A stretch of 64,000 bases of DNA, taken from positions 1 to 64,000 of the forward strand of contig JAGHQL010000028.1 in the NCBI GenBank assembly GCA_020080175.1. Direction: 5' to 3'. Position 1 is the first letter of the stretch. Each line of letters begins with the position of its first letter. The notes beneath the pieces were generated by a model, which worked only from the letters and a program-made list of their open reading frames with translations, did no database searches and had not been told where the DNA came from. This DNA comes from Glutinoglossum americanum. Taxonomy: Eukaryota > Ascomycota > Geoglossomycetes > Geoglossales > Geoglossaceae. This document shows, in pieces, positions 582 through 52,484 of this stretch. A program made the translations under genes and the position numbers.

Positions 582-3500
582 TCAATAAGCTCCAACCTCC
601 TGCCCCGCGCTCGCCAGCGCCTCGTACACGTTCGGCGGCAACTTATACTTGATCATACCCGCGTACACCATCAGATCCTTCGCCTTCCCCAGCAGCTCGT
701 CGGCCATGACCTTCCTGGTCCCCACGTCGAACTGGGATGCCCGCAGGAGGTCGCGCTGCCGGCCGCAGCAGGTGATGGTCCACATGAGGAGGTTCCCGAC
801 GTTGCGGGCGACGGACGGGTGGAGGCCCGAGAAGGCGTGCGCCGAGGAGCGGATCTGGTAGACGTCGGAGTTTGCCGAGAGGGGGAGGATGTTGAGGGAA
901 GATATTATCTGTTTTTTTTTTTAGTTTTTAATTTTTAATTTTTTAGATTGGGGGTGGGAGAGGAGAGAAGAAAAAAAAGGAGGCGAGGGCGAGCCTCATA
1001 GTAGGAGGAACCAAAGGGGGGAGTGACTTACGTCCAACGCTGGGGTCCACTGCCCCACCTCCACCAACGCCTTCGCCTCGCTCATCCTCAACAGAATACC
1101 GCAAGCGTCCCGGTTGGCCTGTCTGATCTTCCGGAAGTACATCGCATTCCCATTGTACAACCCGATCATATTCCGCGCCAACACCGCCGGATCGTCCACG
1201 GACGTCAGGCTCAGGCTGCTTCCGGGCTGCGAGTTCTCCCGTTGCTGTTGATCCGGACCAGCCCTCGGCTTCAGCGGCTGGAGTTTGAGCTGCTCTTGTC
1301 CGATGTCGATGGCTATCGCCTCTGATAGCGTCTTGTTGATGATGGCGATTACGTTATCGTACTCTTCCGCGAGGTGGTAGAGGAGAACCGCGTCCGTGGT
1401 CCGGCCGTTGTCGTCGGCCACCTTAGCGGCTTGGGTCGTCACCGTATGTAGGAACTCCTCTTGATCCGTGAGCTTGATCAACTTCAGCCGTCGCTCGATC
1501 GCACCGCCGATGCGGATCCCGTCCGCGCGTATGTCGCCAAGAAGCTTCGCGAATTCGCGGGTTTCAAGGACGAGCTCGCGGAGCGCGCTGTGGCAGAGCG
1601 AAGCTTGGGATTTGCCGGACTGGCCTGGGAGGTCTGCGTTTAGGCAGATGAGAGTGATATAGTCCACGGCAGCTTCGACGTTTCCGGCTCTAAAGTCGCG
1701 GGTATAGTAACCTAGCATGCGGCCGAAATTGATCCGAGGGAGATCGCTGGTGGTAAAGCTGACTAAAAGGCTATTAGCAATGTGGGCTAAAATGGGCCAA
1801 AGACTCTACTCGACGGATCTAGGGTAACTCACGAAGCTCAGAGTCTGACGCGTGGGAGTCCGAGACACGTAGGAGGCCATAAAAGTCCAGGGCGATCCCA
1901 AAGTGCACGGCATCGATATACTGGTAAGGGTAGAGATACGCGACGGCCTGCTCAAACATCCCTGCGAGAATCTGCAAGAAGAAATATGTTCCGTACCCTC
2001 CACTCGCCGCCTCCTGCCCCTTCACGAAGTGCCTTTGGCCGATTTCCTTAATGACCTCTCTCACTTCGTCCAATCCAAATACCTCGCCGGCAACTTCATC
2101 CACCCGGTTTACCTCTCGTGCCAGGCTGAATTGTAGCCATATCCAATCCTCAACGCCTTGGCTAACTCCTTCAAGACTCCTCTTGCTGAGATCACATCGC
2201 CCGATCACCTTATAGCAGGCCATCCTGTAAGGATCTATGGAGTCTTCAGGTGCGATGCGCTGGCGTTGCGTATACTCCGCATTGATCCTATCCTGCAGGT
2301 CCCGTGTCAAGCGTCGATTACCGTCATTAGCATAGCTGGTGATATAGGTCACGAAGTTGCGGTCGATGTTCCTGAACGAAGAGTGGTTGCCTGTCACGTA
2401 CTCCGCGGCTTCCTTAAGATGACCTGTCCGTAGAAGGTAAAATATCAATACCCAGACGTAGTCGCTTCCGAGCATCTGTAGAGTTCCATTCTCGGGGATT
2501 AGATCCCTCTGTGAGTTGCGGAGATTAATATATGCACGGATCTTGTTAATATTTGAGGGAACACCACCAACGCGAGCTTCGCGAGGGTTTTTGGCGATCA
2601 GGGCTTCGATTTGCCGATAGAAGCTATATATTAAAAGTAGTTAATACAAATGCCCCTTTGAAGTACCCATTTGGGAAGAGGAAACACGAAAGAAGGACCG
2701 AGTTACTCGCCTCTTCTCCAAGAAACTCCTCGACCCGTCGATAATCCTTTTCTTGATAGCCACGGACCTCGCTGAGTTGGGGGACTCCTCCAGGTAGTCC
2801 GCTGCGAATTGCCTTTCTCTGATATTGTCTGGATCCGTGGCATTAACGGCATTAGGGTTTTCTTTCACAATCTCACTTAATGCTTTATACGCATCCACAA
2901 GCTGGCTGGTAGTCTGTACCGCGGATAATCAGCTCTCTGAAGGGTGGGGGGGAAATAAAATGGACGCGGCAATGCCACTGGAGCCGCGTACCTGATCGGC
3001 AGAGGATTGTGATTCAACGCTGGCAAACTCCCTAAGTATCGGGGATGCTCTGCCTTCCAGCCTAGCCTCATTCAGCCTCCCAACCGTCTCTGCGAACCGA
3101 GTTTGCTTCTCTCTAAGGAATCTATCATCTGGGCCCCCTAGGCCGCCGCTAAGACCAGCCCCAGCAGCCTTCTCTGCCACATCCGTGAACAGCGGTACAT
3201 GCCCAATTCCCGCAGTCGTTGGAGCACCTATGACGGACTTGGACAGGCTTGGAGCACCAAAAACGCTTCCGCCGGTAGGTGTAGTTGAACGGCCCATACC
3301 GCCTCTGTCTTGCGTTCGTCCACGTCGTGTAGACCGCCCAAACCCTCCCCTAGCGGAGCTGCCACCTGAGGCGTTGATATCATCAGTATCCCTACCCTCC
3401 GCATTGCGTGGCACAAGACCAAAATGCTCGTAGATTCTCCGCCGCTGGGCGTCCCATTCCATGGTGACATTCTTCTCAAGAAATGCATCAAAATCTTGGG

Positions 3501-49653: not shown

Positions 49654-50125
49654 TGTAAGAACTCTCGATGCCAAGGCGACACGAAGGCACTCCGACGTCG
49701 AGGGATCTAAGGGGTTCGATAACAGTGTGACGTCGCACCTTGCAGCGATGACGATGGCTGGCCGACTGGTCTGCGTCTAGGTAAGGTCTAGATGTACGAG
49801 GACTAATGGATGGACTTGATGGTCGATGGTTCAGGGCGACTTGACGTCGGCCCGATTTAGAATGTAGAGTAGACGGAATAGACTTGATTCTAGTAAGCAG
49901 GAGATGTAGAAGAACTGATCGCTGACCTCCAGCGGGAGGCCAGCGAGCTACTTATATACACGACGGGCATTCAACAATGGACCAGACATCATAAAGCAAT
50001 AAGGATGTACGCTTGCAGAATCTATATAGCCATATAGGCAAGTCGCCATTTGCGTAACCCGAGCTAGTTACCCGGCCGCGGAGGCCTAAATGGCCTCGCC
50101 GGGTAACCGACTGCGGGTCATGACA
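49654..50125 (-). mobile_element. Solo LTR, 472-bp family A, inside the mariner element
   Basis: Read on the minus strand it begins TGTCATGACC and ends TTCTTACA. The 5-bp duplication ACTTC flanks it (49649-49653 and 50126-50130). Its 472-bp length equals the LTR at 61746 and the solo LTR at 54209. A TATATAA-like box is present (GTATATAAGTAG on its sense strand). It is a fossil remnant of recombination between the LTRs of a Ty3/Gypsy element. Confidence 0.9.
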
Positions 50126-50839
50126 ACTTCTCTCCATTTAAATTCCATAAGTGCCCTATATCTAGGTGCTCCTTTTGTAGTGGTTTTTTGTTTAAGGTAA
50201 TACCAGCATGGCTCTATAGCATTCAAATCTGGTAAATTACCAGGCCATCTAAATCGCTCCATCTTATACTATTTAAAAACCTTCTCTTGTATAGAATGTA
50301 CATATGAAGAAGCCTTATCCTCTTGTACTATAATATCTGATCGAGACTTTTTACACTCTTGTGCAAAAGATAAAAGTTTTTCCTTAAGAATAACTTTTTG
50401 ATATCAATACCAATCAATACCTCCTCCTGCACTTCATTCTAACTTTCCAGTTTTAGATGTAAAACTCCATTGTGGTTTGCGACCTCGAATAGAATGTCGT
50501 AATTTTGCTTATCGTTCAGTAGTTTTTCTTTCCCATAACTGTCGTGCATGTGGTTCTAAGATCTTATTCAAAGAATCAATCTCCTGCCTTGCTTTTTTTT
50601 TTTCCACAGTAGTTTCTGCTTTCCAGATATGTATTGGCCCTTTCCAATCATAAGAGAAACATCCCCAAAACATAAACTCAGAACACTTTTTCCAGCATCT
50701 ACGTACATATGTCTTATGATAACGTTCATCTGGAGTTTTCCATACACGAGTTCCTTCTCGCTGGTGTCCTAATACCATACTTGTTTTATCTGTTCATATG
50801 ATATTTTTCCAATCTTCCAATTTCCAATCTTTATGTCTT

Positions 50840-51916
50840 TGTCATGACCTGCAGTCGGTTACCCGGCGAGGCCATTTAGGCCTCCGCGGCCAGGTAACTA
50901 GCTCGGGTTACGCAAATGGCGACTTGCCTATATGGCTATATGGATTCCGCAAGCGTACATCCTTATTGCTTTATGACGTTTGGTCCATTATTGAATGCTC
51001 GTCGTGTATATAAGTAGCTCGCTGGCCTCCCGCTGGAGGTCAGCGATCAGTTCTTCTACATCTCCTGCTTACTAGAATCAAGTCTATTCCGTCTACTCTA
51101 CATTCTAAATCGGGCCGACGTCAAGTCGCCCTGAACCATCGACCATCAAGTCCATCCATTAGTCCTCGTACATCTAGACCTTACCTAGACGCAGACCAGT
51201 CGGCCAGCCATCGTCATCGCTGCGGGGTGCGACGTCACACTGTTATCGAACCCCCTAGATCCCTCGACGTCTGGCCTCCCGCTGGAGGTCAGTGATCAGT
51301 TCTTCTACATCTCCTGCTTACTAGAATCAAGTCTATTGTAATGTGTAGATAAGAACTCGCGCACACCACCACTTGGGCAAAAAACCATAGTATTAGCCGA
51401 CAGGCTAATACGTTCCTACACCGTGCTTATATAGAGCCGCATGTAATATGACATCGGCGCGCCGGCGGTGTCCCACCACGCCCAACCGTTACAATTGCCC
51501 TCTCCTTTAGAGACTGCGTCCTCGCAGTCTAGGTACACTCAGGCACCCCTAGCACTGCACGCAGGCATCCCGCCGGTGGTAACAACACTGGCACACAGGC
51601 GCGCACTCTACCCATAAGCTACGTTAAGCCCCCAGCTTCGTAGCTACCAGCTGGAGCACGACCCTACGCCGCCCGCAGCCCGCCCACGAAGCTGTCAGTC
51701 AAAGGCAAGTAGTGCACCCCACACGACTTGAACCCGTGACCGTTGTTGGCTAATACTCTTGTAATGTGTAGGTAAGAACTCGCGCACACTACCATTCGGG
51801 CAAAAGACCACAGTATTAGCCGACAGGCTAATACGTTCTTACACCGTGCTTATATAGAGCCGCATGTAACATGACATCGGCGCGCCGGCGGTGTCCCGCC
51901 GCGCCCGACCATTACA
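50840..51916. mobile_element. Composite LTR insertion: family A front joined to a miniature LTR element
   Basis: The insertion is bounded by GTCTT at 50835-50839 and 51917-51921, so it appears to have entered the mariner element as one unit. It begins as a plus-oriented family A LTR (TGTCATGACC, 50840-51268). It then repeats an internal piece of the same LTR (51269-51336) and passes into the miniature element (51337-51916), whose last bases ATTACA form the far end. A family A end (TTCTTACA) is missing. It is non-coding. Confidence 0.75.
51337..51916 (-). mobile_element. Miniature LTR element (TRIM-like), two 157-bp LTRs
   Basis: Direct repeats 51337-51493 and 51760-51916, each 157 bp, begin TGTAATG and end TTACA. 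They surround a 266-bp GC-rich internal part with no coding frame. The likely sense strand is minus: on that strand a CTCTATATAAGC box lies inside the LTR, and a purine-rich tract (AAAGGAGAGGG) precedes the downstream LTR, as a polypurine tract should. The two LTRs differ at about a dozen positions, all transitions, which suggests RIP rather than great age. There is no gag or pol, so it would depend on another element. Confidence 0.75.
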
Positions 51917-52484
51917 GTCTTAATGCAAATTAAAGTCGAGCTTCTCTCATCTCTTGTGTAAGTTCAGGTTTCTAACTTGGCTTACGTTTTGACATCCTTG
52001 CTTCTTGTAATATTCAATATGCTGTTCTTACAGAAACACCTACTAACCAATCAAGCTTTTCAGAAGATTTTTCTCTACCATCACGATCTTTTCTTACATG
52101 CTTTAATAACTCTTTCTTCTATTCTTCTGTAACTACTTTAGGACGTCCAGAATGAGGTGCATCTTCTATATACTCAATCTTGAGTTCGCGAGATTGTGCG
52201 AGGTTGTAACCTCGTTCGCATGCTTTTTTCTTGAGATTGTAAATAGTTTTTCTAGAAAGACCAGTAATTTCGGTCACATGCTTTGTTGGAATGCCTTCTT
52301 CAACTAAGACAAGTATCTGGATATGTACCGCAATATTGTGCTTCTTAAAAACCATTTTTACATAGGTATATTGACTCGAATAGGGTGGTTAGTAGTTGTA
52401 CTGGAGTTTAGTTGAGGCACTGTCTAATTCTAGACCTCGCTTAGGTAAGATGAGTCAAGACTTTTGGCCGCTGCCTTCATACTT

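Follow-up and report, generated by a model that had tools for sequence, protein, structure and literature searches.

How did part of one LTR element and the whole of another, with unrelated LTRs, come to lie in opposite orientations within one target-site duplication? This question is raised by a composite insertion of 1077 bp (50840–51916) in the window, i.e., the stretch of 64,000 nucleotides that was analyzed here, which is part of contig C201 of an assembly of 25.77 Mb in 317 contigs. Judging by the ORFs, the genes of the window may be those of a filamentous fungus. A preliminary description of the locus held that the same outermost bases, GTCTT, are found on both sides, although the left end belongs to an LTR of family A (hereafter A) and the right end to a miniature LTR element (hereafter mini), and this was borne out, with both copies of GTCTT at the positions given.

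The insertion site and the family A part

The left copy of GTCTT (50835–50839; recognized from the sequence and from empty sites in related mariner copies) and the right copy (51917–51921; recognized from the sequence), neither of which has a strand, lie directly outside TGTCATG, the start of A, and CATTACA, the end of mini, so that the outer ends of the composite are exact integrase-type ends (TG...CA). With the local base composition, the probability that two such 5-mers are identical by chance is 0.0017. The composite lies within a degenerate copy of a Tc1/mariner-type transposon (50089–52388, minus strand), identified by an HTH piece (52122–52388) and a DDE_3 piece (50089–50268), both scoring below the Pfam curated cut-offs; a third mariner piece (50512–50793) gave no match in the Pfam search.

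When the joined mariner flanks were used as the query, nine matches were obtained, two being the window's own flanks and seven representing other copies. The unoccupied site was present without an extra 5-mer in four of these seven copies (L053, L054, L057 and L058; 67–70% identical), with L053 additionally lacking 3 bases approximately 10 bases to the left of the site, while L055, L056 and L059 failed to align there. Because four mariner copies span the site with a single GTCTT, the repeated 5-mer is a genuine duplication that arose on integration, which is the outcome that the preliminary description had anticipated for a check of empty mariner copies. The same mariner copy also holds a second A solo LTR (49694–50126, minus strand), about 0.7 kb away, inverted in orientation and flanked by an exact duplication, GAAGT. 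No tRNA gene was found in the window by ARAGORN, and an Rfam search of 50700–52050 gave a single chance match (E 0.89).

The left part of the composite, as aligned to other A copies, corresponds to positions 1–432 of the 472-bp A LTR (50840–51271, plus strand). Complete copies have 40 further bases ending in TTACA, which sets the LTR length at 472 bp; these last 40 bp are missing here, and the tail is also absent on the far side of mini. Repeat comparison revealed a second, partial A LTR piece on the plus strand (51271–51337; LTR positions 183–249), which repeats 51022–51088 with 66 of 67 bases identical. The out-of-order piece of A reported in the preliminary description is therefore real, with its limits shifted from the 51269–51336 and 51029–51095 given there. 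At each of the two inner junctions of the composite, one base is common to both sides. Judging by the repeat, the 67-bp piece can be explained simply as a remnant of the second (3') LTR of one A element; the match of 66/67 is nevertheless not diagnostic, since at least five other A copies match it as well as A's own left LTR does (among the best 40 of 133 candidates scored).

Family A, for which the preliminary description proposed a place among the Ty3/Gypsy elements, has 472-bp LTRs and a gag region with a Retrotrans_gag domain (below the cut-off) and a zf-CCHC zinc knuckle (above the cut-off). Among 27 fetched copies with both ends, which include the four LTRs of two apparently full-length elements (in C4 and C70), 5-bp duplications were exact in 13 and carried one mismatch in 3; the flanks of the C4 and C70 LTRs match only as pairs (AATTC/AATTC and GCCAC/GTCAC). 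The A LTR of the composite has a TATA box, TATATAAG (51007–51014, plus strand), with a predicted RNA start near 51042. A self-priming match, AGCGATCAG, is located at LTR position 203 (203–211), 35 bp downstream of the first base of the TATA box, and is weak, extending over 9 nt in C4 (equaled by 66 of 2000 shuffles) and 5 nt in C70 (1986 of 2000).

In the assembly, there are at least 53 other A-type matches, fragments included, the closest of which are 96–98% identical (best 40 of 128 candidates scored). This abundance would favor an assembly error, by which one or both inner junctions were created in a repeat-rich stretch. We consider such an error the least probable source of the composite, as there is no N in the window and both flanks belong to one continuous mariner copy with the same 5-mer.

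A LTRs are clustered, often as inverted neighbors about 0.05–1.6 kb apart (C201, C251, C136, C138, C53, C114 and C1). One A LTR (L043, C13 near 126272) is interrupted at approximately LTR position 429 by a nested insert of some 158 bp, the inverted ends of which are TGTGGAG...CTCCACA, and the A tail is retained beyond the insert. Several A solo LTRs, in C102 (L034), C263 (L030), C138 (L038) and C1 (L045), showed no matching duplication in a simple comparison, a hint that more insertions may be rearranged or composite.

The miniature element and its relation to family A

The right part of the composite is a complete miniature LTR element of 580 bp (51337–51916) that, according to three orientation signals, lies on the minus strand and is antisense to A. 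The length of 157 bp given for it in the preliminary description, which overlooked this orientation, is that of its LTR. Two such LTRs, with 266 bp between them, make up the element, all parts of which are on the minus strand: the 3' LTR (51337–51493), found by repeat comparison; the polypurine tract AAAGGAGAGGGCAAT (51494–51508), which adjoins it; a primer-binding site complementary to the element's own LTR (51744–51757), identified by complementarity with shuffles as controls; and the 5' LTR (51760–51916), with the TATA box TATATAAG at LTR positions 61–68. The orientation signals consist of this TATA box, a purine tract, AAAGGAGAGGG, which adjoins the left LTR and has 13 purines in 20 positions versus 7 in 20 at the matching place of the plus strand, and the primer site AGTATTAGCCGACA, which lies just inside the right LTR and is complementary to LTR positions 92–105. 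The latter positions correspond to the putative self-primer TGTCGGCTAATACT (51812–51825, minus strand), defined by its complementarity to the primer site and situated 31 bp downstream of the first base of the TATA box, at a place where transcription could begin (a predicted start).

Complementarity at the primer site extended over 14 nt both in the copy in C217 and in that in C136 when compared with its 3' LTR (0 of 2000 shuffles in each case), over 10 nt in the window copy (3 of 2000) and over 9 nt in C136 when its mutated 5' LTR was used instead (26 of 2000). On the basis of these signals, mini looks self-primed and Tf1-like. It has no reading frame longer than 61 aa (stop to stop, with frames considered from 45 aa). 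Its LTR also contains a 22-nt palindrome-like stretch, GTATTAGCCGACAGGCTAATAC.

Three full copies of mini (window, C217 and C136) and seven partial LTR matches are present in the assembly. The C217 copy (L012, 1501–2080) lies within a gypsy-type element with an RNase H domain and is flanked by the duplication CAGAG, and the C136 copy (L013, 1037–1622) by CAACT/CAGCT; relatives of the mini LTR are flanked by GTAGT (L017) and AAGCC/AAGCT (L015). These duplications were read by eye and cover four of the nine other loci (L012, L013, L015 and L017), the rest being partial or unclear. No autonomous partner was found by stop-free stretches at the partial mini-LTR loci L014–L020, where the longest stretch was 244 codons (L020).

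Comparison of the mini LTR with the A LTR revealed no similarity beyond chance (223 of 500 shuffles attained the score of 18). Within the 40 bases that immediately precede the 3' LTR, 33–36 bases of mini align with A, and the score of this polypurine-tract region was reached by only 1 of 500 shuffles for A in C4 and by none of 500 for A in C70. For the gypsy-type element in C217, the corresponding counts were 265 of 500 shuffles with mini and 72 of 500 with A in C70. The likeness supports either a common plus-strand priming signal or shared descent, and because this region is common to both, mini and A plausibly use the same enzymes. The proposal that mini is mobilized by the machinery of A thereby gained independent support; from the fusion, on which the preliminary description had based it, it gains none, and the polypurine-tract likeness is the better evidence for A-like mobilization.

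Three different LTR families show a possible short hairpin immediately ahead of the polypurine tract, each with its own stem sequence (L012, 1884–1923 and approximately 3065–3104; L029 and L041, 1279–1318; window, 51494–51533). Folding was good for the C217 mini, the window mini and the C217 gypsy-type element (equaled by 4, 2 and 5 of 200 shuffles) and poor for two A copies and the C136 mini (63, 130 and 73 of 200). With folding support in three of the six pieces tested, the hairpin carries no weight in what follows.

The orientation and the LTR comparison bear directly on the mechanism put forward in the preliminary description, namely that reverse transcriptase switched between an A RNA and a mini RNA and that the product integrated as one molecule. 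One duplication does span both elements, and complex insertions of such a kind have been described for Triticeae (PMC1950507). However, the opposite orientation of mini and A argues against this model in its plain form, since a copy-choice between RNA templates would need a change of polarity. Each outer border is formed by a U3 end, the LTRs at the two borders are unrelated, and two non-homologous jumps would be required. Furthermore, the first base of the 67-bp A piece lies some 20 bp upstream of the weakly predicted A RNA start, so that the piece is probably not an RNA 5' end. Taken together, these features make template switching a very unlikely origin. A version in which the switches occurred at the RNA ends (position 183 as the RNA start and 432 as the RNA 3' end) was also considered and was dropped, since the weak self-priming match puts the start near LTR position 203.

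Routes to the composite insertion

The reading that we prefer, while holding it tentatively and with less than even confidence, is that a single integration inserted a joined pair of DNAs into the mariner copy, the outer ends being the U3 ends of A and of mini. A U3 end lies at each outer border because mini is inverted relative to A. Integrase would have attached an A cDNA by its U3 end on the left of the target and a mini cDNA, likewise by its U3 end, on the right, giving rise to one GTCTT duplication, while the inner ends would have been joined together, either by end joining or by an attack of the mini U5 end on the A DNA. The far end of A would have been lost, leaving A up to LTR position 249, and a deletion from position 432 of the 5' LTR to position 183 of the 3' LTR would have removed the internal part of A and produced the out-of-order piece. 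We infer the joining of both outer ends in the same event, the meeting of the inner ends and the internal deletion; the anatomy, with its exact ends, genuine duplication and inverted second element, is seen directly in the sequence. Joint integration accounts for the exact outer ends and the single genuine 5-bp duplication with no coincidence, and at other loci, too, insertions of A and of mini are flanked by 5-bp duplications. The polypurine-tract region common to the two elements, and with it the plausible use of one set of enzymes, also speaks for this reading. Against it, the internal deletion in A is still required, and a second example was not found in the assembly.

This last point emerged from a search of the 25.8-Mb assembly with the inner junctions as 25- and 27-mers, allowing up to 3 mismatches, which yielded no second occurrence. 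Similarly, among 42 matches listed for the fused unit (best 40 of 133 candidates), only the window's own extends more than 3 bases past the junction. Given that each junction was found only here, there is no sign of a moving chimera, contrary to the repeated copies of the fused unit that the preliminary description had envisaged. A further cost of joint integration is the rarity of events of this type, with 2 template-switching complexes in PMC1950507 (Table 1) against 400 LTR insertions, 20 complexes of recombinant origin and 220 further cases of recombination.

Those same counts, by which recombination of LTR elements is common (PMC1950507, Table 1), speak for a serious alternative, in which ordinary nesting was followed by decay. 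Here, a full-length A would have inserted with GTCTT, and mini would have entered its 3' LTR in antisense after position 248. One deletion would then have joined position 432 of the 5' LTR to position 183 of the 3' LTR, and another the TTACA at the right end of mini to the TTACA at the end of A, removing the tail and keeping the outer duplication. It had been argued in the preliminary description that a nested insertion would leave the tail of A on the far side of mini; the tail is indeed absent, but this is not decisive against nesting, because a TTACA/TTACA deletion leaves just what is seen. Each step is of an ordinary type, TTACA is terminal in both elements, and the 66/67 match of the 67-bp piece to A's own left LTR, although not diagnostic, is what would be expected of a second LTR. 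Nested arrangements do occur, with mini inside the gypsy-type element in C217 and the insert in the A LTR in C13, where the tail is kept. On the other hand, mini and the A tail have 96 maximal exact repeats no shorter than 5 bp in common, of which TTACA/TTACA is just one (19 are of at least 6 bp and 7 of at least 7 bp), and nesting predicts that mini is younger than A, yet the mini LTRs look older.

With regard to relative age, comparison of one mini LTR with the other revealed 12 differences in 157 sites, each of them a transition. The A part differs from its three nearest copies, among 32 aligned rows, at 9, 11 and 11 of 432 sites, and carries 5 private changes in 432 with respect to these three, all within LTR positions 1–160. 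Under equal rates, the difference between 5/432 and 12/157 gave p values of 0.017 when counted per base and of 0.021 when counted per G+C site, which became 0.031 and 0.038, respectively, when one site shared with a neighbor was added, and 0.015 when the 67-bp piece was added; when every one of the 9 differences from the nearest A copy was used, the test was not significant (p 0.12). These values are to be read with the comparison to three nearest copies having been chosen after the data were seen and with the mutations being clustered. Counting private changes over all 32 aligned A rows was discarded, as it gave 0 for the composite, with old copies carrying the same transitions. The comparison weakly suggests that mini is at least as old as A and perhaps older. 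This fits neither joint integration, which predicts equal age, nor nesting well; it weighs more strongly against the nesting of mini in A than against joint integration.

The age order would, again weakly, favor a history in which mini came first, standing alone between the two copies of GTCTT, A was later inserted at the left one of these 5-mers, and position 249 of A became fused to the first base of mini through a deletion. The sequence to the left of mini would have been AGTCTTTG, which is nearly the same as the AGTCTATT of A and could have guided such a deletion. However, A would have had to strike exactly the same 5-mer and the deletion to end exactly on the first base of mini, and we regard this order of events as improbable.

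On balance, joint integration is slightly favored, with nested decay close behind, a nearly even choice that reflects our judgement and not computed odds. We find it possible, although somewhat unlikely, that the locus records the fuller scenario, in which a self-primed TRIM (terminal-repeat retrotransposon in miniature) sharing the A-type polypurine signal lives on A-type machinery and one integrase complex joined both U3 ends. If the composite arose by one integration, it would constitute direct sequence evidence of a gene-less mini and its supposed helper in one integrase complex, a sharing that is usually inferred just from similar ends. If it arose by nested decay, it would serve as a warning that, where two elements have terminal bases in common, a perfect outer duplication around them is no proof of a chimera. 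An apparently self-primed TRIM is of modest interest under either reading.

Comparison with known systems

Composite LTR insertions inside one duplication are already known. Illegitimate recombination has reportedly led to the decay of nested LTR insertions (Devos et al. 2002, as cited in PMC1950507). The locus resembles such insertions in its partial second LTR, its missing tail and the short repeats at the break points, and differs in that the outer duplication joins the ends of two different elements.

Complex LTR insertions attributed to template switching have been described in Triticeae, rice and maize (Sabot and Schulman 2007, PMC1950507), and the likeness lies in a composite of two LTR elements within one 5-bp duplication. 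In those complexes, related elements in the same orientation form three LTRs with near-identical outer ones, whereas here the outer ends come from unrelated LTRs and the second element is inverted. Of the features by which they are recognized (PMC1950507), the flanking target-site duplication is present (GTCTT on both sides, single in four empty sites). The outermost LTRs are not highly similar (score 18, 223 of 500 shuffles, as above), and in place of two core sequences with an internal LTR, A lacks its internal part and mini points the opposite way.

TRIMs occur in plants and in some animals, and there are reports of them from fungi (PMC6934838). With its 580 bp, 157-bp terminal direct repeats and 5-bp duplications, mini resembles them, falling below 1 kb with repeats in the range of 100–250 bp; like them, it has no coding capacity and a short non-coding internal part with a primer site and a polypurine tract before the 3' LTR. 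It differs in that its primer site is complementary to its own LTR. The matching paper in the open-licence literature offers no clear mechanism for the elements that it describes, and, with that literature as the scope, we make no claim that a self-primed TRIM is unpublished.

In self-priming LTR elements of the Tf1 type, the primer site is complementary to the 5' end of the element's own RNA (PMC10085805). By comparison with the Tf1/sushi elements treated there, A shows weak complementarity and mini is without genes; mini resembles them in that its primer site is complementary to the 5' end of its RNA, as placed by the predicted start.
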